In this document: piece after piece, positions 36,811-51,196 of the stretch
How the letters are laid out: each line of letters opens with the position of its first letter
Position numbering within the stretch: position 1 is the first letter of the stretch
Source: Phycisphaerales bacterium
GTDB lineage: Bacteria; Planctomycetota; Phycisphaerae; Phycisphaerales; UBA1924
Reading direction: 5' to 3'
DNA length: 64,000 nucleotides
NCBI GenBank assembly: GCA_028289195.1
Contig: JANQQR010000026.1
Coordinates: 62,001-126,000, forward strand
The notes under the pieces: model-generated
Told to the model about the DNA's origin: nothing
Seen by the model: the letters and a program-made list of their open reading frames with translations, nothing else
Database searches by the model: none
Translations under genes and position numbers: made by a program

Positions 36811-38774
36811 CCGATCAGCGCCGCTCCGGTGCCGAGCGATCCGAACACGATCCTCGACGGGTACTCGCTCGACCTGAACACGCGGTGCGTCGCGGCCGTG
36901 AAGTCGTCGTCCTCGGCGAAGAAGATGTTCTCGACCCACTTCTGCGGGTTGCGGTCCATGATCGGGAACCAGGTCGACTGGATCTGGATCTGGATCTTGT
37001 GGCCCTTCTTGAACGTGTGCATGACATCCTGCAGCGGCAGGCGCACGAGGGTCGGCGTGTCGCGGGTGAACGGCTCGGGGTTCTCGAACGAGTTGCGGTA
37101 GCGCCCGCGGATCGCCTCCGATCGCACGAGCATGTGGTAGTTGCCCGTGCGCATGCCGTCGTCGAGCTCGTCGTGGTCCTCGGCGTCGGGCGGGAAGATG
37201 TCGACCAGCTTCACCACGAAGTCCGCGTCGTCCATCGTCGTCGACACCCACAACTCGGCAACGAGCGGCCCGGCCATTGTGACATCGCGGTCCAGCACCG
37301 GGGTCGTGTAGCTCAGGACGTCGGTGCGGCGCGCATTGAATCGTTGATCGTCGGTCATGTACGGGCGCGTCATCCCCGTGGTGATGTCCGTCGTGTACGG
37401 CACCGGGCGATTGGGATCCGAGAGGTACTCATCGTTCGCCCGACCGGGGTCTGCCGGCGAGTCCAGCGACAGCGTCCAGCCATCGCGCAGGTAGAGGATC
37501 GACTCCTCCGCAGCCGCTGGGGGCCACGAGGAGAAATGGCGCCACTGGTTGGCGCCGGTCTCGTACACGAGCGCCTCAGGGAGGTGGTGTTCTGGCCCGC
37601 CCCTGAGGTGATGCTCGAAGAACGGGAGCATCACGTGGTTCTGGAAGTAGTTGCTCACGCCGGGCGAGAACTGGGCATCGCCCAGGCGCTCGCCGCTCCC
37701 GCGCAGCCAGCCGCCGTGGGACCACGGCCCCATGACGAGGAGGTTCTCGACGTCCGGGTTTTGCTGCTCGACGGCGCGGTAGGTCGCCAGCGGGCCGTAG
37801 AGGTCTTCGGCGTCGAACCAGCCCCCGACCGTCATCACCGCTGGGGGCACACGCTGAAGGTGCGGGAGGATGTCCCGCGCCTGCCAGTACTCATCGCGGG
37901 TCGGGTGCTGGATCACCTCGTTCCAGAAGGGGATCTCGTTCTTGTAGTACTTCTCGTTCACGTTCTTCAGCGAGCCGAGCTCGAGGAAGAAGTGGTAGCC
38001 GTCGGGCGTCCCGTGGTCGATGCGCTCGGGCCATTCGGTTGTGAGCCCCTCGCGTTCGCGCCCGAAGGTGTAGAAGAAGTTGAAGAAGTGGGGGAGGAAA
38101 AACGCCCCGTTGTGATAGAAGTCGTCGAAGTACCAGTCGGCGATCGGCGCCTGGGGTGAAGACGCCTTGAGCGCCGGGTGCGCATCGGGCATGCCGGCCG
38201 ACGTGTAGAACCCCGGGTAGCTGATGCCCCACTGGCCGACGCGGCTGTTGTGATTGTCGACGTTCTCCATCAGCCACTGGATCGTGTCGTACGTGTCGGT
38301 GGACTCGTCGACGTCCTGGTCGGACTGCTTGTCGGGGTTGTGGGGCCGCATGTTCACGAAGTCGCCCTCGCTCATGAACTTGCCGCGCACGTCCTGGAAC
38401 ACGAAGTGGTATCCCGCCTCGGCGAACTCGATGTTCGGGCGGAAACGCGAAGGGAACTCGTCCGCGCCGTACGGCGCGACGGTGTAGGGCGTTCGCAGGA
38501 GCAGGATCGGGTACCGCTCGCTGGTGTCCTTCGGTGAATACACGCTCGTGAACAGGGTGGCCCCGTCCCGCATCGGGACCCGGTGCTCGCTCTTGGTGTA
38601 GTGCTCCCGCAGGTACGCGGCGACGCCTTCCTCAGCGAGACGCTCGTTGTCGGCGAGGGAGAGGTCCCTGGAACTCGCCGGCCCTGTCTGGGTCGTGCAT
38701 GCTCCGAGCACCGCGGCCAGCGTGAGAGCGGGCACGGCGCGGGTGATGGAACGGATCATCGGGTAGATCGTCAC
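36777..38774 (-). CDS. CocE/NonD-type alpha/beta hydrolase, lipoprotein
   Basis: About 665 residues. The start is taken as GTG at 38774, with GGAGG five bases upstream; the ATG at 38759 is the alternative. Signal peptide with lipobox LGAC (IRSITRAVPALTLAAVLGAC). The N-terminal half is the S15/CocE hydrolase: PMRDGATLFTSVYSP, VFQDVRGKFMSEGDF, GQWGISYPG (nucleophile Ser in GxSYxG), GGWFDAEDLYG (Asp) and MGPWSHGGW (His). The C-terminal half is the jelly-roll galactose-binding-like domain of the family. Such enzymes cleave acyl esters or X-Pro peptides; substrate unknown. TATCAT on the minus strand at 38815-38820 could be its -10 box. Confidence 0.93.
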   Translation of the reverse strand: MTIYPMIRSITRAVPALTLAAVLGACTTQTGPASSRDLSLADNERLAEEGVAAYLREHYTKSEHRVPMRDGATLFTSVYSPKDTSERYPILLLRTPYTVAPYGADEFPSRFRPNIEFAEAGYHFVFQDVRGKFMSEGDFVNMRPHNPDKQSDQDVDESTDTYDTIQWLMENVDNHNSRVGQWGISYPGFYTSAGMPDAHPALKASSPQAPIADWYFDDFYHNGAFFLPHFFNFFYTFGREREGLTTEWPERIDHGTPDGYHFFLELGSLKNVNEKYYKNEIPFWNEVIQHPTRDEYWQARDILPHLQRVPPAVMTVGGWFDAEDLYGPLATYRAVEQQNPDVENLLVMGPWSHGGWLRGSGERLGDAQFSPGVSNYFQNHVMLPFFEHHLRGGPEHHLPEALVYETGANQWRHFSSWPPAAAEESILYLRDGWTLSLDSPADPGRANDEYLSDPNRPVPYTTDITTGMTRPYMTDDQRFNARRTDVLSYTTPVLDRDVTMAGPLVAELWVSTTMDDADFVVKLVDIFPPDAEDHDELDDGMRTGNYHMLVRSEAIRGRYRNSFENPEPFTRDTPTLVRLPLQDVMHTFKKGHKIQIQIQSTWFPIMDRNPQKWVENIFFAEDDDFTAATHRVFRSSEYPSRIVFGSLGTGAALIGQSGESGSDSE

Positions 38775-38911
38775 GGTCTCCTCCGTCGGGTTCGAGGCTT
38801 GCCCCACCGCACCGATGATACAGCAGAGCACTGGGCGCCCCTGAGGCGGTCTCGCGCACCGGACTGCGGGTACACTCTCGCTGCCGATCGGGGCGACGGG
38901 AGACGGGTGCG

Positions 38912-39505
38912 ATGGAGCAAGATGCCGCCACGCGCGTGACGCAGATCCTCCAGCACTTCGGGGAGCGCGAGCACGCGGCCGACGATCTGCTTCCCTTGGT
39001 GTACGACCAGCTCCGCGCGATCGCCACCCGCAGGATGGCCGGCGAGCGCGCCGCGCACACACTGCAAGCGACGGCCCTCGTTCACGAGGCGTACGTGAAG
39101 CTCATCGGCGATCAGGACATCTCGTGGGAGAACCGCGCACACTTCTTCGGCGCCGCTGCCGAAGCGATGCGACGGATCCTGATCGACCACGCCCGGAAGC
39201 GTTCCAGCCAGAAGCGAGGCGGGGGCCGGTCGGCCGTGCCGATGAGCGTCGTCGATCTGGCCGAGGACTGCGATCCGTCCCAGGTGCTGGCGCTCGACGA
39301 GGCGCTCACGAATCTCGAAGCGAGCGACCCGCGCGCCGCCAAGGTCGTCCAGCTGCGCTTCTTCGCGGGGCTGGGCGTCGACGAGGTGGCCGAGGTGCTC
39401 GGTATCTCCGAGAGGACCGTGATGCGGGAGTGGGCGTTCGCCCGAGCGCAGCTGTTCGAGTCGTTGGGAGACGGCGGGGCCCCGTCGGGTGAAGACGCAC
39501 CATGA
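38912..39505 (+). CDS. ECF-family RNA polymerase sigma factor
   Basis: 197 residues. Sigma region 2 (LLPLVYDQLRAIATRRM, TLQATALVHEAYVKLIG, FFGAAAEAMRRILIDHARKR) and region 4 (LRFFAGLGVDEVAEVLGIS, RTVMREWAFARAQLFE) are clear. The sequence is the SigZ/TIGR02999-like ECF type common in planctomycetes, next to Ser/Thr kinases. The ATG at 38912 has GGGAG nearby. TACACT at 38871-38876 is a candidate -10 box. Its stop overlaps the start of the kinase-TPR gene by four bases (ATGA), so the two are translationally coupled, and the kinase may control the factor. Target promoters unknown. Confidence 0.94.
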   Translation: MEQDAATRVTQILQHFGEREHAADDLLPLVYDQLRAIATRRMAGERAAHTLQATALVHEAYVKLIGDQDISWENRAHFFGAAAEAMRRILIDHARKRSSQKRGGGRSAVPMSVVDLAEDCDPSQVLALDEALTNLEASDPRAAKVVQLRFFAGLGVDEVAEVLGISERTVMREWAFARAQLFESLGDGGAPSGEDAP

Positions 39506-42312
39506 GCGACACTGGCGACAGAACCAAGGACCTCTTCTTCGAACTGCTCGACCTCGACCCCGACGAGCGGACACGCTATCTGGATCGTGCCAGCGCAGGT
39601 GACGCCGAACTGCGGGCCCGCGTCGAGCGACTGATCGCGGCGCACGATGACGCGGGCGCGTTCATGTCCGAGCCGACCTCCCCCGACGCCGGCGTCTTCC
39701 GCGCGGCCACACCCGGGCCCGCGCCCGAAGCGCATACCCCCGAGAAGCCCGGGGATGTGATCGGCAACTACACGCTCTCCCGCCTGATCGGCGAGGGAGG
39801 GTTCGGTTCGGTCTACCTCGCAGAGCAGACGCGGCCGGTGTCGCGCCGCGTGGCTCTCAAGCTCGTCAAGCTCGGTATGGACACCCGCCAGGTCGTCGCC
39901 CGGTTCGAGGCGGAGCGCCAGGCGCTGGCGATGATGAGCCACCCGCACATCGCGCGCGTGTTCGACGCGGGCATGACGGGCGCCGGCCGGCCCTATTTCG
40001 TGATGGAGTACGTCGACGGCGAGCCCATCACGCAGTTCTGCGACCGCAAGCAGTTCACCGTGACCGAACGCCTCGAGCTGTTCCGCGAGGTCTGCATGGC
40101 GGTGCAGCACGCCCACCAGCGGGGGATCATCCACAGGGACATCAAGCCCTCGAACGTGCTGATCACGGTGGTCGACGGCAAGGCCCAGCCGAAGGTCATC
40201 GATTTCGGCATCGCCAAGTGCATGGGGCGCGGTCTCACAGAGCAGACGCTCATCACCGAAGACCGGCAGATGATCGGGACGCCGGAGTTCATGTCGCCGG
40301 AGCAGGCCACGCTGAGCGCTTCGGATGTCGATACGCGCACGGATGTCTACGGCCTGGGCGTGCTGCTGTACGTGCTGCTGTGCGGCGCCGGCCCGTACGA
40401 CGAGGGCCGCTTGCGCTCGGCGTCGTTCAGTGAGCTCGAGCGCATCATCCGCGAGGAACAGCCGCCCCGCCCGTCGCAGCGGATCGAGCAGCTCGCTGAT
40501 CAGCGCGAGGCCTTTGCGCGGGCCCGCGGCGTCGAGCCCGAGCGTCTTGCGCGCGCCGTGCGGGGCGAGCCGGACTGGATCGTGCTGAGAGCGATCGAGA
40601 AGGACCGCGCGCGCCGCTACCCGACGGCGTACGCGTTCGCATCGGACATCGAGCGATCGCTGCAGAACGAGCCGATCGAAGCCGGGCCCCCGAGCCGCGT
40701 CTACCGCGCCCGCAAGTTCATACGCCGCCACAGCGTCGGGGTGGGCGTTGTCGCGCTCGTGGCGGTGCTCCTGATCGCGGGCGTCGCGGGGACCAGTTGG
40801 GGCCTCGTCCGCTCCATGCGCGCTAATGAGCAGACGAATCGGTTGCTCGTCGCCGCACAAAACGAGCGCGAGAATGCGACCGAGGCGCAGCGCGAAGCCG
40901 AGCGTCGCTCGACGGAGCTGCGGGTGCTCGCGGATTTTGCCCAGAGCATCCTGACCGGTGTCGACCCCGCGATCGCCCAGGGACGCGACACCGAGCTGCT
41001 CATGGAAGTCCTGCGCAGCGCCGGCGATCGCGCCGAACTTGAGCTGGCGGATTCGCCCGAGATCCACGCACGCATCCGCAACACGATCGGGCACACGTTT
41101 GTGCAGATCGGCAAGTACCCCGAAGCAGCCGTCGAGTTCCAGCGGGCTCTGGATGTCGCCACGGACGCCTTCGGCCCGACGCACGTTGATGCGATGGACG
41201 CGCGCCAGAACCTCCTGGTGGCGAGATTCCAGACGGGAGATCTGGAGGGCGTCAGCGAGATGGCCGGGCCCCTGATGGCCGATCAGCAGGAGGTGTTCGG
41301 CGAGCGCCACCAGGAGTCGCTCCGGACCGAGCGGGTGGTGGCCAGGGTCAAGATGAGCGAGGGAGACTGGGAGGCTGCGCGCGAGATCTTCGAGCGCCAG
41401 CTCCCGATCCTGCGGGAGGAGCTGGGTCCCCGTGACCCCGACACGCTTAGCGCCATGAACTCGCTGGGCGTCGTCTACGACAACATGGGCATGCGCGACG
41501 AGGCGATCGAGATCTACGAGGAGGTCAGCGCGTGGCAGCAGGAACTCCGCGGCGAGAAGCACCCGCTCACGCTCGCGACGCTCAACAACCTCGCCGACGT
41601 GATGATGGACGACGGCCGGTTCGAGGAAGCCCTGCCGATCCTCCAGCGCACCTACGAGACCAAAGTCGAGATCCTCGGCCCCGAGCACCCGAGCACGATC
41701 ATCGGCGGCAACAACCTCGCCAGCGCGTACGGCCAAGTCGGGCGCACCCAGGAAAAGATCGACCTGCTCCTGGAGATCGAGGCCGCCGCGGTGCGCGGGC
41801 TCGGCGAGCAGGACATGCGGACGCTCATCCTGCGCAACAACATCGCGATGGAGTACGCCAAGTCGGGAGACCTCGCCCGGGCCGAGCCGATGCAGGAGCG
41901 GGTCGTGGCGGGTTTCGAGGGGCTGTTCGGGCCCGATCATCCCAACACCCTCCGCGCGGGCGCCAGCCTTGTGGGCATGCGCATCGACCTTGGTCATTAC
42001 GAAGAGGCATACGAACGCATCACCCCGTTGCTGCCCCGGGCCGATGAGGTGTTCGGCGCCGACTCGGCCACAGCGCAGGCGTTCCAGATCCACTACGCTC
42101 GAGCGCTGATCGGGCTCGAGCGCTACGAAGAGGCGGAGCCGATTCTCGATCGCGCACTCGAACTGCTCGAGGAGGATCACGGGGGCCAGCCGGCGCGCAT
42201 CGATCGCGCGATGCGGGCGCTCGCCGAGCTCTACGGCGCCACCGGGCGGGCCGACGAGCAGCGGGCGATGCAGGCGAGGCTCGACGAGCGGGGCTCCGAT
42301 CCCCCCGCCTGA
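39502..42312 (+). CDS. Ser/Thr protein kinase with TPR repeats, partner of the ECF sigma factor
   Basis: 936 residues. Short helical N-terminal part (DLFFELLDLDPDERTRYLD), a Hanks kinase domain (about 88-370): LIGEGGFGSVYLAEQ, VALKLVKLGM, IIHRDIKPSNVL (catalytic Asp near 212), VIDFGIAK and GTPEFMSPEQA; then a single span at about 412-435 (VGVVALVAVLLIAGVAGTSW). The outer part is about ten TPR units (for example AVEFQRALDVATDAFGPTH, ALPILQRTYETKVEILGPEH). The order of sigma factor then kinase is a typical planctomycete signalling pair in which the kinase regulates the factor. The signal sensed is not known. Confidence 0.95.
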   Translation: MSDTGDRTKDLFFELLDLDPDERTRYLDRASAGDAELRARVERLIAAHDDAGAFMSEPTSPDAGVFRAATPGPAPEAHTPEKPGDVIGNYTLSRLIGEGGFGSVYLAEQTRPVSRRVALKLVKLGMDTRQVVARFEAERQALAMMSHPHIARVFDAGMTGAGRPYFVMEYVDGEPITQFCDRKQFTVTERLELFREVCMAVQHAHQRGIIHRDIKPSNVLITVVDGKAQPKVIDFGIAKCMGRGLTEQTLITEDRQMIGTPEFMSPEQATLSASDVDTRTDVYGLGVLLYVLLCGAGPYDEGRLRSASFSELERIIREEQPPRPSQRIEQLADQREAFARARGVEPERLARAVRGEPDWIVLRAIEKDRARRYPTAYAFASDIERSLQNEPIEAGPPSRVYRARKFIRRHSVGVGVVALVAVLLIAGVAGTSWGLVRSMRANEQTNRLLVAAQNERENATEAQREAERRSTELRVLADFAQSILTGVDPAIAQGRDTELLMEVLRSAGDRAELELADSPEIHARIRNTIGHTFVQIGKYPEAAVEFQRALDVATDAFGPTHVDAMDARQNLLVARFQTGDLEGVSEMAGPLMADQQEVFGERHQESLRTERVVARVKMSEGDWEAAREIFERQLPILREELGPRDPDTLSAMNSLGVVYDNMGMRDEAIEIYEEVSAWQQELRGEKHPLTLATLNNLADVMMDDGRFEEALPILQRTYETKVEILGPEHPSTIIGGNNLASAYGQVGRTQEKIDLLLEIEAAAVRGLGEQDMRTLILRNNIAMEYAKSGDLARAEPMQERVVAGFEGLFGPDHPNTLRAGASLVGMRIDLGHYEEAYERITPLLPRADEVFGADSATAQAFQIHYARALIGLERYEEAEPILDRALELLEEDHGGQPARIDRAMRALAELYGATGRADEQRAMQARLDERGSDPPA

Positions 42313-42357
42313 CGATGGTGACAGGGGCCCGCCCGCGGCCTACCATCGGCTTCTTCC

Positions 42358-43473
42358 GTGGAGCCGGGGACGGGAGACGAGCACCCTTCGTATCACGACC
42401 GAGCCTTCGAGATGTCAGTCGACCGAGGATTTGTCGCAGAGATCATCGAGACCGGGGCGGGAGCCTTCGCCGGCTATGCCGCGTCCGACCTGCTCGAGCG
42501 GCAGAGCTCGGGCGAGGAGGCCGATCGCACCGGAGCGTTCGCGCCCTGGAAGGACCACTTCGCCTACCTGCTGGAGGAACTCGCCGCCGCGATCCGCGCG
42601 GGGCGGGTGGAGCTGTTCTCCCGCCACCTCAAGTGGAGGCAGGGATCGCTCGAGGCGCGCAGGTTCGACACGACGACCGGGCGCGACGCCCTGTTCGTGC
42701 TCCGCGAAACGCTGAGCCGCGAGCTGCCGCCCGACGCACGCTCGCTGGCCAACGAGTACATCGTGCTCGCGATCGACGAACTCGATCGCGGCGGGTCTTC
42801 GCCCGAGCAGGGCCTCACCGCGGACACCGAGAACGGCGCGCTCGCGCTGCGCTTTCTCGAGAAGATCCTCGAGGGCGATCGGCGCGGGGCGATCAGGGTG
42901 ATCCTGTCAGCCGTCGACGCGGGCTCGGACCCGCGGAACGTCTACACGGATGTCCTGCTCAAGGTGCAGGAAGAAGTCGGGCGCATGTGGCACGCCGACG
43001 AGATCATGATCGGCGAGGAGCACTTCGGCACGGAGACCGTGCGCAACACGATGGCGATCCTCGCGCACCGCTACGCCCCCGACACGACCGACGGCCCGAC
43101 CGTGCTCTCGGCAGCCGTGCAGGGCAACGCCCACGACATGGGCGTGCGCGCCGTGGCCGACTTCTTCGAGATGGAGGGTTTCAAGTCGGTCTGCATCGGC
43201 AGCGATGTGCCCCCGCTCGACCTTGCCCAGGCCGTGAACGCGTTCGGCGCAGACCTCGTGAGCCTCTCGGTCGCGATGCCCACGCAGCTCAAGGCCTGCG
43301 AACGCGCGATCGCCACGATCCGCGAATTGGACCAGGCACGCAGAGTGAAGATCCTCGTCGGGGGCCGTGTGTTCCGCGAGACGCCCGATCTCTGGAAGCA
43401 GTACGACGCCGACGGGTTCGCCGAAGGTCCGCGCGAGGCGATCGCCAAGGCCCGCGAACTCCTGGCCGGATGA
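42358..43473 (+). CDS. Cobalamin-binding sensor-like protein (CarH/AerR type, no DNA-binding domain)
   Basis: 371 residues from GTG 42358, supported by TACCAT 11 bases upstream (nearly leaderless); ATG 42412 is an alternative. N-terminal about 150 residues are helical with WKDHFAYLLEELAAAIRAG, resembling RsbR-type N-terminal domains. Then a helical B12-cap domain (LKVQEEVGRMWHADEIMIGE), with Trp211 and Glu221-His222 in the W-x9-EH spacing of CarH and related photoreceptors. The Rossmann domain has GNAHDMG with His259 (Asp of DxHxxG replaced by Asn), LVSLSVAMP and ILVGGRVF. Unlike CarH there is no MerR helix-turn-helix. It lies downstream of the sigma/kinase pair. Cobalamin binding is likely, function inferred. 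Confidence 0.8.
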   Translation: MEPGTGDEHPSYHDRAFEMSVDRGFVAEIIETGAGAFAGYAASDLLERQSSGEEADRTGAFAPWKDHFAYLLEELAAAIRAGRVELFSRHLKWRQGSLEARRFDTTTGRDALFVLRETLSRELPPDARSLANEYIVLAIDELDRGGSSPEQGLTADTENGALALRFLEKILEGDRRGAIRVILSAVDAGSDPRNVYTDVLLKVQEEVGRMWHADEIMIGEEHFGTETVRNTMAILAHRYAPDTTDGPTVLSAAVQGNAHDMGVRAVADFFEMEGFKSVCIGSDVPPLDLAQAVNAFGADLVSLSVAMPTQLKACERAIATIRELDQARRVKILVGGRVFRETPDLWKQYDADGFAEGPREAIAKARELLAG

Positions 43474-43476
43474 TCG

Positions 43477-43495
43477 GCGCCCGCACCTCGGGCGC
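43477..43495. terminator. Hairpin between convergent genes
   Basis: GCGCCCG-CACCT-CGGGCGC is a perfect seven-base stem four bases after the stop of the cobalamin gene, in the 46-base gap before the convergent metalloprotease. No T tract, so termination activity is uncertain. Confidence 0.4.
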
Positions 43496-43519
43496 GCACG
43501 GCTGAACCAGGACGTGATA

Positions 43520-44812
43520 TCAGCGCCGGCGCCGGCGGATGGCCAGCAGCCCGAGGCCCACGAGCGAAACACCGGCCGGGGCCGGGATCACACCGTTAAA
43601 CCGGTTGACGAACAACTCGTAGTTCCCGGTGTCGCCGGCGCTAAACGCGTTGACCTTCAGGTAGTAGGTATCGTTGGCTGGCAGGAACAGATCGAGGATC
43701 TGCGAATCTAAGCCCTCGAGTTCGTCGTCGTTGAAGGCGTTCGTGCCGTAGTAGTCAACGAAGTTGCCAAGCGAATCGAAGACGCTGATCTGCGGATCGA
43801 TCGTCGCGCCGAGCTGCTGCGCGATCGAGCCCGACATCACCTCGATGTTGATGAGGTCGCCTGCGTTACCGGTGAAGCTGTAGAAGTCCGATTCTCCGGA
43901 GAACGAGAGCGTGCCGGTCACGCTCAGGGCGTCGACGGAGAAATCCGCGAGCCCGGCGTTGTCACCCGAGACGATCGTGTTCGGGACGGTCATGTTGGCG
44001 AGGGAGATCGGCTGCGCGGTGCCGATCGAGCCCTTCGGTCCCGGCGTTTCCCCGATGAAGGTTCCCATCTCGTTGAAGGCGAGCTTGACCGCCGCACGCT
44101 CGCTGAGCCAGGAGGGCGTCAACGCGGCGCTCAGGGGCTGGCCGACCGAGCCGGGTGAGGCCATGATGTGGTCGTTGGTTTCGTCGCCGCCGAGCGGGCC
44201 GGGGTAGCTCGGCAGCCAGGCGCTCGAGGGCAGAGCCGGGGTGATGCCCGAGCCGATCGGGCCCATCGAATCGTGGTGGCGCAGCCCGAGCAGGTGGCCG
44301 AGCTCGTGCGACCCGATGATCGAGCTCGCCGAGATGATGTTCGACACGCCGCCGATGCCGAGGCCGTCGATGTTGACGACCGCCGTGTCACCGAAATCGA
44401 CGTTGCCGAAGTCGATCTGCTGTGCGAGGCCGCCCGGGCTTCCGGCGTTGAACGTGATCGTCGAGAACACACCGCCCGGGTTCACGTTGGTGACCTGGAC
44501 GTTGAACGCGCTGTAGTGCCCGTTCATCGAGTCGCGGATGGCGGTCCGCATCGCCGGCGTGTAGTTGATCGTGCCGTCGGATCCCGAGTCGAAGTCGAGG
44601 AACACGAACTGCGTGGGGCTGCCGCGCGAGCCGAAGCGGTCGATCCCCCGCGCCCTGAGTTCGGGGCCTTCGCCGATCGACACATCACCGTGGATCGTGC
44701 CCTTCACACCGGGCTCGCAGCACGTGCACTGCCAGAATCCAAGGGCCTGGCTCGACAGCGCGAGCGACCCGGAGAGCAAGCCGAAGGCAACCCGAAGTCC
44801 TGATTGACGCAT
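43520..44812 (-). CDS. Exported zincin metalloprotease with PEP-CTERM-like tail
   Basis: 430 residues. Signal peptide MRQSGLRVAFGLLSGSLALS with probable cleavage after ALG. Zinc-binding HELGHLLGLRHHD near residues 166-178. After the catalytic part, a beta-sandwich domain (SFSGESDFYSFTGNAGDLI) as in bacterial pre-peptidase C-terminal domains. The tail IPAPAGVSLVGLGLLAIRRRRR is a PEP-CTERM-type signal (PAPA for PEP, a hydrophobic helix, then Arg), which in related bacteria targets exosortase. Shortly after the signal, WQCTCCEPG contains three Cys, perhaps a metal or disulfide site. GGAGG is 12 bases before the ATG. No exosortase gene is in the window. Confidence 0.9.
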   Translation of the reverse strand: MRQSGLRVAFGLLSGSLALSSQALGFWQCTCCEPGVKGTIHGDVSIGEGPELRARGIDRFGSRGSPTQFVFLDFDSGSDGTINYTPAMRTAIRDSMNGHYSAFNVQVTNVNPGGVFSTITFNAGSPGGLAQQIDFGNVDFGDTAVVNIDGLGIGGVSNIISASSIIGSHELGHLLGLRHHDSMGPIGSGITPALPSSAWLPSYPGPLGGDETNDHIMASPGSVGQPLSAALTPSWLSERAAVKLAFNEMGTFIGETPGPKGSIGTAQPISLANMTVPNTIVSGDNAGLADFSVDALSVTGTLSFSGESDFYSFTGNAGDLINIEVMSGSIAQQLGATIDPQISVFDSLGNFVDYYGTNAFNDDELEGLDSQILDLFLPANDTYYLKVNAFSAGDTGNYELFVNRFNGVIPAPAGVSLVGLGLLAIRRRRR

Positions 44813-49229: not shown

Positions 49230-50039
49230 TCACGTGCGCGCCACAAACACCACCCGAGACAAGCGCCCCTCGCCCGCCAGCCTCGCCGTGACATCCAGGA
49301 ACACCTGCTGACGCTCGAACGAATCGGCGCCCTCGACTTCGCGCAGGCCGTCGGCGTGCGCGGCGCGGGCGTCGCGGAAGCGCGAGGCCACCAGCGCCAT
49401 GTTGCCGGTCACGTCTTCTTCGCGCTCGATCTCGAAGCCGATCTCCCCGAGCAACCCGGCGTCGTAGGCGCGGGGCACCATCAGGAAGTAGCCGATCGAC
49501 GTGCGGATGCGCATCTCCTCGTCGGTGATCGGCCCGGTCACAATGATCGGGTCGGTGAACAGCAGGCATCCGCCGGGCTTGAGCACGCGCTTCCACTCGC
49601 GCAGCACCGCCGGGCGATCCGGCAGATGATTGATCGCGTCGAAGCACGACAGCGCATCGAACGTGCCGTCTTCAAAAGGGAGGCCCGCGCCGGCGTCGAC
49701 GGTCTGGAACCTGCAGCGCTCGTCGAGCGATCGCTCCTTGGCCTGGCGATTGGCCTGCGCGACGCCGTCGGCGTGGATGTCCACCCCGACGAGATCGCAC
49801 CCCGTTTCCTTGGCCATGAACAGCGCGGGACCGCCGGAGCCGCAGGCGATGTCGAGCAGCGCCTGCCCGGCGCCGAGGCCGATCCACGACAGGAAGCCGC
49901 GTACTTCGTCGGCGGTGATCCAGCTGTTCTGTCCGATGTCCTCGCCCCAGGTCTCGCGCCGGATGGAGGCGTAGAGGTCGGTGGCGAAGCCGCCGTATTG
50001 CGCGTCGTAGAACTCGCTCTTCGACGCCTCGGTCGTCAC
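49230..50039 (-). CDS. SAM-dependent methyltransferase, class I
   Basis: 269 residues. SAM motif LLDIACGSGGPALFMAKE, strand 2 DLVGVDIHADGVAQA, then GLPFEDGTFDALSCFDAINH and WKRVLKPGGCLLFTDP, all typical of the UbiE/Erg6-like class. The helix at the start (EASKSEFYDAQYGGFATDL) resembles sterol or small-molecule C-methyltransferases. Substrate unknown. GTG start at 50039 overlaps the dnaN stop (GTGA). Confidence 0.9.
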   Translation of the reverse strand: MTTEASKSEFYDAQYGGFATDLYASIRRETWGEDIGQNSWITADEVRGFLSWIGLGAGQALLDIACGSGGPALFMAKETGCDLVGVDIHADGVAQANRQAKERSLDERCRFQTVDAGAGLPFEDGTFDALSCFDAINHLPDRPAVLREWKRVLKPGGCLLFTDPIIVTGPITDEEMRIRTSIGYFLMVPRAYDAGLLGEIGFEIEREEDVTGNMALVASRFRDARAAHADGLREVEGADSFERQQVFLDVTARLAGEGRLSRVVFVART

Positions 50040-51196
50040 TGCAGGTTGACCGGCATCACGACGTAGAGGAAGTCCGAGCCGCTCTTGATCAGGCCGGGCT
50101 TATTCGGCGCCTTGAGCTCGAGGATGATCTGCTCGTCGGCCATGACCTTCAGCGCGTCGGTCAGGAACGCCGGGTTGAAGCCGATCTCGATGTCCTCGCC
50201 CTCGTAGCCCTCGAGCTCGACGTCGATCTCCGCCTCGCCCATCTCCGGGGTGCGGCTGGACATCTTCAGCAGTTCGCCCTTGTCAGCCTTGCTGAACGCC
50301 AGGCGCACGCCGCGGCTCTCCTCGTTGGTCAGCAGCGCGGCGCGCCGGACGGCAGAAGAGAGGATCTGGGTGTCGAACTTCGCCTTCTTGTCCTGGTCCT
50401 TGGGGATGACGTCGTCGTAGGGGGGGAACGCACCTTCCACGAGGTTCGACGCCAGCACAGCGCCCGAGCCGTCCTCGGTTTCGTCGAAGGCGAAGACGAT
50501 CTGGTTCGAGGTGATCGCCACGCGGACCTTGCCCTGCGGGTCGTCGATCAGCTTGGCGACGAGGTTGAGCGCCTTGGTGGGGACGATGCACGAGCTGTCG
50601 TCGGTGCCCGACGGGGTCTCGGCGTTGCCGCGGGCGAGCGCCAGGCGCCGGCCGTCGGTCGCGACCATCTCCAGCTTCTTGCCCTGGCGACGCAGGAGCA
50701 CGCCGTTGATCGCGTAGCGCGAGTTCTCGCGGGCGGTCGAGAACACGGTGCGACTGATCAGGCGCTCGAGCGTCTCGGTCGAGATGGTGAACACGTCGGC
50801 GCCCGCGTCGTCGCCGGGAAAGTCCGGGACAGCGGGGAAATCCTGGGCGGGGTAGCCGAACACCTTGAACTTGGCGTCGCGCCCCTTGATCTCGCAGACG
50901 TCCTGCTGGGATTCGATGGTGAGCGTCGGTTCGGAGTCCTGCGCCTGCACGATCGCGCGGAGGCGATCGGCGGGGATGAGGACTTCGCCCGGTTCCTGCA
51001 CCTCGACCTGCGCGCGGCTGAGGCGCGTCGAGATCTCGGCGTCGGTGCCGCTGAGGGTGATGAGATCTCCGGAATCACCCTTCTTGGCCTCGAAGTGGAT
51101 GCACATCAACTGCGGCTTGGGAGTTCTCGATGCAACGACGCCCGCAACGAGGTTGACGGCGTTCAAGAGCGCAGCGCGATCACAGATCAGCTTCAT
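50036..51196 (-). CDS. dnaN: DNA polymerase III beta subunit (sliding clamp)
   Basis: 386 residues. The ring-shaped clamp that holds replicative polymerase on DNA. Three domains of similar fold: MKLICDRAALLNAVNLVAGV at the N-terminus, LIPADRLRAIVQ and RLISRTVFSTARENSRYAIN in the middle (conserved NGVLL region), and the C-terminal YVVMPVNLQ (consensus MPMRL-like end used for partner binding). ATG at 51196. It is not next to dnaA, recF or gyrB here, in contrast to many bacteria. TACACT at 51251-51256 is a possible -10 box. Confidence 0.96.
   Translation of the reverse strand: MKLICDRAALLNAVNLVAGVVASRTPKPQLMCIHFEAKKGDSGDLITLSGTDAEISTRLSRAQVEVQEPGEVLIPADRLRAIVQAQDSEPTLTIESQQDVCEIKGRDAKFKVFGYPAQDFPAVPDFPGDDAGADVFTISTETLERLISRTVFSTARENSRYAINGVLLRRQGKKLEMVATDGRRLALARGNAETPSGTDDSSCIVPTKALNLVAKLIDDPQGKVRVAITSNQIVFAFDETEDGSGAVLASNLVEGAFPPYDDVIPKDQDKKAKFDTQILSSAVRRAALLTNEESRGVRLAFSKADKGELLKMSSRTPEMGEAEIDVELEGYEGEDIEIGFNPAFLTDALKVMADEQIILELKAPNKPGLIKSGSDFLYVVMPVNLQ

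Follow-up and report, generated by a model that had tools for sequence, protein, structure and literature searches.

A putative stand-alone globin-B12 light receptor of the photocobilin type in a Phycisphaerales bacterium

Receptor gene, locus and family

The window, that is, the whole 64,000-nucleotide stretch analyzed here, comes from a Phycisphaerales bacterium (contig JANQQR010000026.1, positions 62,001 to 126,000). One of its genes encodes a predicted globin-B12 protein, hereafter the receptor, and is preceded on the same strand by genes for a sigma factor and a protein kinase:

38912..39505, + strand: ECF sigma factor gene (PF07638, TIGR02999), overlapping the start of the kinase gene
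39502..42312, + strand: gene for a Ser/Thr kinase with TPR repeats (936 aa), ending 45 bases before the GTG of the receptor gene
42318..42346, + strand: promoter-like site in the gap separating the kinase gene from the receptor gene, GTGACA-17-TACCAT (consensus match only)
42358..43473, + strand: globin-B12 receptor gene, 371 aa from the GTG, likely 353 aa from an ATG at 42412

The ATG at 42412 (residue 19) is a likelier start than the GTG at 42358, because homologues begin near residue 19, residues 1-20 were modeled at a pLDDT of only about 50, and the promoter-like site, the sole sigma-70-like match in positions 38700-43600 (0.3 expected), lies just upstream. In a Pfam analysis of the open reading frame, B12-binding_2 (residues 165-235; 3e-14) and B12-binding (residues 248-361; 6e-18) were the only families above the cut-offs; neither a helix-turn-helix (HTH) nor any other DNA-binding family was found, in agreement with an earlier note on this DNA, which had described a sensor devoid of a DNA-binding domain. 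The AlphaFold model of the receptor, obtained with a 30-row alignment, has a pLDDT of 90.7 and a pTM of 0.86.

Of 100 genomes of the same family, 29, among them that of the window, proved to carry the receptor gene in a whole-protein search. A second survey then extended the set across phyla to 89 non-redundant sequences (88 homologues and the receptor); in the scan of genome contigs, matches were obtained with the alignment as the query and none with the single protein. Globin-B12 proteins of ~350 residues are present in Planctomycetota, Pseudomonadota, Acidobacteriota, Chloroflexota, Balneolota, Myxococcota, and two archaeal metagenome-assembled genomes (MAGs), and no fused output domain was seen among those surveyed across phyla. 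Fusions were considered for two homologues with open frames of 809 and 908 codons and rejected, the extra length being upstream extensions of the frame. The archaeal genes (L173 and L179) come from MAGs labelled Bathyarchaeota and Lokiarchaeota, where transfer or mis-binning is possible.

The B12-binding module and its light signature

The C-terminal part of the receptor is a two-part B12-binding module with four short motifs:

42835..43077, + strand: four-helix bundle of the B12-binding module, residues 160-240 (Pfam B12-binding_2, model)
43090..43470, + strand: B12-binding Rossmann domain, residues 245-371 (Pfam B12-binding, model)
42979..42993, + strand: GxxW light motif, G208-x-x-W211-H212 (alignments; PMC11796333)
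43018..43023, + strand: EH motif E221-H222, of the adenosyl pocket and dimer interface (alignments; PMC11796333)
43123..43134, + strand: GxxH motif G256-N-A-H259, with H259 as the predicted lower cobalt ligand (alignments; PMC11796333)
43198..43212, + strand: GxxxP motif G281-SDV-P285 (alignments; PMC11796333)

Together, GxxW, EH, GxxH, and GxxxP form the published signature of light responsiveness in cobalamin domains, which has been validated experimentally through light response and occurs in only 1,561 of 128,000 CBD sequences (PMC11796333). The receptor carries all four motifs (G208-W211, E221-H222, G256-H259, and G281-P285), with the W211 codon at 42988-42990 and exactly nine residues between W211 and E221. 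The earlier report of W211-x9-E221-H222, followed by a Rossmann domain with H259 in GNAHDMG, is correct in every position. In the 30-sequence alignment, G208, W211, E221, H222, H259, G281, and P285 are invariant. Across the 89 non-redundant sequences, the same holds for all of them but H222, which is kept in 86; because the pattern used in the second survey (E[LVI]G[RT][ML]W...) contained G208 and W211, the conservation of these two residues is not independent there, whereas that of EH, GxxH, and GxxxP is. All eight signature residues are kept in 79 of the 89.

Two further positions deserve attention. The Asp of DxHxxG, where photocobilins have E/DxH, is N257 in the receptor (N257-A-H259), a substitution already recognized in the earlier note; Asn is also the commonest residue at this position in the family (52 of 89 members, against 28 with Asp and 9 with Glu). 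H212, present in 60 of the 89 members, aligns with TtCarH His132, the second cobalt His ligand of the CarH light state, whose counterpart is missing from CtMerR, SasPcob, and AbDPcob (PMC11796333); SasPcob has Gln and AbDPcob Tyr in place of H212.

Structural comparison of the modeled B12 module gave the best match to SasPcob (Z 27.9, rmsd 1.7 Å over 208 residues), followed by AbPcob (Z 27.4), compared with a Z of about 22 for CarH and 20.3 (rmsd 3.6) for AerR. By this measure, the predicted module is structurally nearest to photocobilins, not to CarH, so that CarH and AerR, the points of reference chosen previously, are not the closest ones. The complete signature, H212, and the best match to light-responsive B12 domains nevertheless agree, at the level of sequence and model, with the previous proposal of a light or cobalamin sensor that probably acts by protein contact.

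A different role for such a module would be that of a methyl-carrier corrinoid protein in a methyltransferase system, and the TIGR02370 and MtgC models do match it at 1e-17 to 2e-17. Yet the scores are far under the curated cut-offs (64 versus 215 bits), the corrinoid protein 1y80 has neither the Trp nor EH at the aligned positions, the receptor carries a fused globin, and there is no methyltransferase partner among its immediate neighbors; we therefore reject this role as very improbable.

Other B12-type proteins of the same genome are distinct from the receptor. Both the Trp and EH are missing from its MetH (L003), which has Phe for Trp, and from a second B12-type protein on contig C11. The latter, a two-part B12-type domain of 236 aa (L085:7618-8328; C11 about 162618-163327, - strand), adjoins a ubiE-like methyltransferase gene and also lacks the cobalt His, so that cobalamin binding has perhaps been lost or another ligand is bound. 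The genome further encodes a PduO-type cobalamin adenosyltransferase (9.7e-62) and should thus be able to make AdoCbl from cobalamin.

The N-terminal globin domain and its ligand pocket

Upstream of the B12 module, the receptor contains a second predicted domain, in which two sites are of interest:

42424..42786, + strand: bilin-type globin domain, residues 23-143 (AlphaFold, profile match, structural matches)
42547..42558, + strand: W64-K-D-H67, at the aligned position of the phycobiliprotein bilin motif Cys-x-Arg-Asp (HMMER; allophycocyanin)
42634..42636, + strand: W93, aligned with SasPcob Trp296 and invariant (89/89)

Modeled on its own (residues 20-149), this region reached a pLDDT of 89.6. 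The best profile match is the C-terminal biliverdin-binding globin of SasPcob (8J2W; E 2.2e-11), followed by allophycocyanin, smURFP, and AbPcob, and the Pfam Phycobilisome family matches 9 of 30 family members. Bilin-binding globins, including allophycocyanins, smURFP, and SasPcob, account for nearly all of the structural matches, with Z scores of 14-16. The earlier note had called the domain RsbR-like; the RsbR-type globin 3ZTA falls below the bilin globins (Z 13.3), and RsbR gave no sequence match to the globin profile among the matches listed at E up to 1. Judged by profile and model, the N-terminal domain is a globin of the phycobiliprotein/photoglobin type.

In SasPcob, Asp270 contacts bilin rings A-C and Trp296 packs on ring D of biliverdin, and AbPcob, which has His at the Asp270 position, binds biliverdin weakly and retains a red-light response (PMC10979010). 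The receptor has H67 at the Asp270 position, as does AbPcob, and in the family this position is occupied by His in 29, Asp in 13, and Asn in 12 of the 89 members. The ring-D Trp is present as W93, and R101, the counterpart of AbPcob Arg297, is found in 81 of 89 members. From these alignments, the ligand pocket is conserved in the family, and bilin binding by the receptor globin is uncertain.

These residues bear on a stronger form of the light-receptor reading set out below, in which the receptor would be a dual-chromophore photocobilin whose globin binds biliverdin made by heme oxygenase, so that red light, too, drives AdoCbl photolysis. The proximity of the globin to the SasPcob biliverdin domain, the residues at two bilin-contact positions, W93 (invariant) and R101 (nearly so), and the red-light response of AbPcob despite a His at the same position all argue for it, as does a single heme oxygenase gene in the genome (C19:116831-117400; E 6.9e-22). 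Against it stand the replacement of Cys-x-Arg-Asp by W-K-D-H and the distribution of heme oxygenase, which is encoded in 23 of the 29 genomes with the receptor gene, being missing from the remaining six, and in 49 of the 71 genomes without it (Fisher p 0.34, no association). Co-occurrence with heme oxygenase was accordingly rejected as support for bilin binding, and a phmmer search found no heme oxygenase among the neighbor genes in related loci. We regard a dual-chromophore receptor as a real possibility, at somewhat less than an even chance.

Proposed mechanism and gene neighborhoods

Among characterized systems, the photocobilins SasPcob (8J2W/8J2X) and AbDPcob (8J2Y) share with the receptor a CarH-like AdoCbl domain, W-x9-EH, and a bilin-type globin (PMC10979010); photocobilins provide the best sequence and structure match for the B12 module and the best sequence match for the globin. 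SasPcob, like the receptor, is a stand-alone form (PMC10979010). As in photocobilins, the B12 domain of the receptor, with its W-x9-EH, is fused to a phycobiliprotein-like globin; the order, globin before B12, is the reverse of that in SasPcob, but a group with a C-terminal B12 domain has already been mentioned (PMC10979010), so the arrangement as such has a precedent. The receptor further differs in having NxH instead of E/DxH and Trp at the phycobilin Cys position. Because both the E/DxH and the bilin Asp published for SasPcob are replaced and biliverdin binding is uncertain, we regard it as a variant resembling photocobilins, not as an established one.

The remaining systems each share part of this architecture. 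In CarH/LitR (5C8A-F), W131, His132, E141, H142, and H177 have the receptor counterparts W211, H212, E221, H222, and H259, but a MerR-type HTH takes the place of the N-terminal globin. CtMerR (8JBS) has a divergent B12 domain that, like the receptor, carries the complete light signature, but it differs in its predicted DNA-binding domain and in the Arg at the His132 position (PMC11796333). AerR (7TE2) is a B12 module that acts by protein contact without a DNA-binding domain, has no globin, and is structurally less similar. In the BBAG-2/photoglobin systems, a bilin-type globin is paired with a B12-binding protein, often together with heme oxygenase, but the two are encoded by separate genes and the globin has the RGMC Cys motif, which is missing from the receptor (PMC10151467). 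The N-terminal non-heme globin of the stressosome protein RsbR (3ZTA) shares the heme-free globin fold, but RsbR proteins have a C-terminal STAS domain, which Pfam does not find in the receptor. Thus, the lack of an HTH sets the receptor apart from CarH/LitR, its globin from AerR, and the lack of STAS from RsbR.

On the strength of sequence, model, and analogy, the protein is quite probably a light receptor of the photocobilin/photoglobin-B12 type, stand-alone and dependent on AdoCbl, with the globin placed before the B12 module. No B12 photoreceptor described from planctomycetes was found in a limited literature search. AdoCbl binding, photochemistry, a change of oligomeric state, and bilin binding are properties that we infer for the receptor, with the chemistry carried over from CarH, CtMerR, and photocobilins (PMC11796333, PMC10979010). 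In the dark state, H259 would ligate the cobalt of a base-off AdoCbl lodged where the helical bundle faces the Rossmann domain, while W211, E221, and H222 would secure both the adenosyl group and a head-to-tail dimer. On cleavage of the Co-C bond by green light, the adenosyl group would be lost, after which H212 could ligate cobalt, as His132 does in CarH. Photolysis would change the dimer as well as the contacts made by the globin and, hence, those with a partner. The globin may hold a non-covalent biliverdin, extending sensitivity to red light, or alternatively may merely relay the conformational change. Output would be through protein-protein contact; isolated photocobilins can act in trans, by such contact, on a separate diguanylate cyclase domain (PMC10979010), which provides a precedent for this mode of action.

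The sigma/kinase pair upstream of the receptor gene is an obvious candidate partner, and the receptor might control it directly, as a light-regulated switch of sigma phosphorylation, a possibility compatible with the light-receptor reading. The three genes share a strand, the sigma and kinase genes overlap, and only 45 bases separate the kinase gene from the GTG; moreover, Ser/Thr kinases are known or predicted to regulate ECF factors, also in planctomycete groups (PMC8999054). By analogy, the pair resembles such kinase-controlled ECF factors, being tied to the receptor by adjacency alone. However, it adjoins the receptor gene only here among 27 same-family loci (in one other genome, G059, a sigma/kinase pair lies 3-4 genes away), the chance of finding a sigma gene among four neighbors is about 3%, and the promoter-like site directly precedes the receptor gene. 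Within this family, the gene order is not conserved, and the sigma/kinase operon was rejected as a conserved unit. Direct control of this pair strikes us as unlikely, even though sigma neighbors are enriched among homologues elsewhere, some of them operon-like.

This enrichment concerns the wider family. A sigma-70 family gene was found within two genes in 12 of 57 other non-redundant loci, with about 1.4 expected (P about 3e-8 with the density from the same family of genomes, about 6e-4 at 2% of genes); these counts come from a home-made gene caller, with 5 of the 12 sigma genes checked by Pfam and the rest assigned by similarity. Other neighbors include RskA-type anti-sigma factors (6 loci), fasciclin (9), CFA/UfaM-type methyltransferases (3), DUF1365 (3), and NAD(P)-binding/SDR proteins. 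DUF1365 and fasciclin are tied to photo-oxidative stress regulons. Some of the sigma neighborhoods are operon-like (L123, L145, L112, and G054); for instance, G054, a genome from the organism's own family, has genes for fasciclin, an ECF sigma factor, and an anti-sigma factor immediately upstream of its globin-B12 gene on the same strand. A cluster of ECF sigma with RskA-type anti-sigma and/or fasciclin recurs in L116, L122, L145, L112, L148, L183, and L081 (G054). In gammaproteobacterial loci (L121:5701-6978, L144:6372-7124, and L125:3196-3858), CFA/UfaM-type methyltransferase, DUF1365, NAD(P)-binding, and ECF sigma genes form sets that resemble photo-oxidative stress clusters. In Pseudomonas, genes for UfaM and a short-chain dehydrogenase are light-induced under class II LitR (PMC9758184), a regulon with which the neighborhoods of the homologues overlap.

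Photoprotection-type genes of this kind also speak to another reading, in which the protein senses the availability of AdoCbl or cobalamin, AdoCbl binding alters the protein, and light sensitivity is incidental. The motifs do define an AdoCbl pocket, and the apo and holo states of AbDPcob differ (PMC10979010); nonetheless, with such genes adjoining homologues and the signature itself validated by light response (PMC11796333), we hold a pure availability sensor to be rather improbable.

In a separate clade of the tree, spanning several phyla, the gene next downstream of the globin-B12 gene encodes a histidine kinase (for example, L176:4990-6207). The two genes overlap by 4 bases in L153, L175, L176, and L187 and are closely spaced in L171 and L173, and their products likely constitute a sensor/kinase pair. 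Judging from the neighborhoods of relatives, ECF sigma/anti-sigma switches and soluble histidine kinases are the candidate targets, and the excess of ECF sigma/anti-sigma genes beside homologues indirectly supports the general idea of sigma-linked action put forward in the earlier note. A more far-reaching reading, which we consider possible but not likely, is that of a widespread stand-alone globin-B12 light receptor serving varied transcription switches: ECF sigma/anti-sigma modules in many lineages, a translationally coupled soluble histidine kinase in the separate clade and, here, the Ser/Thr-kinase/ECF-sigma pair, the phosphorylation of which would come under green or red light. What had appeared as a CarH-like sensor with an N-terminal domain of unknown type is now placed, with good support, in the photocobilin/photoglobin group. 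Most of its interest comes from the sigma/anti-sigma and histidine-kinase partners that recur across the wider family; the survey of this family makes the targets of stand-alone photocobilins directly testable.

Elsewhere in the window, we observed genes for a DNA methylase of the N6/N4 type (PF01555; 45655-46485, + strand) and for a DNA polymerase III beta subunit with all three sliding-clamp domains (50036-51106, - strand).
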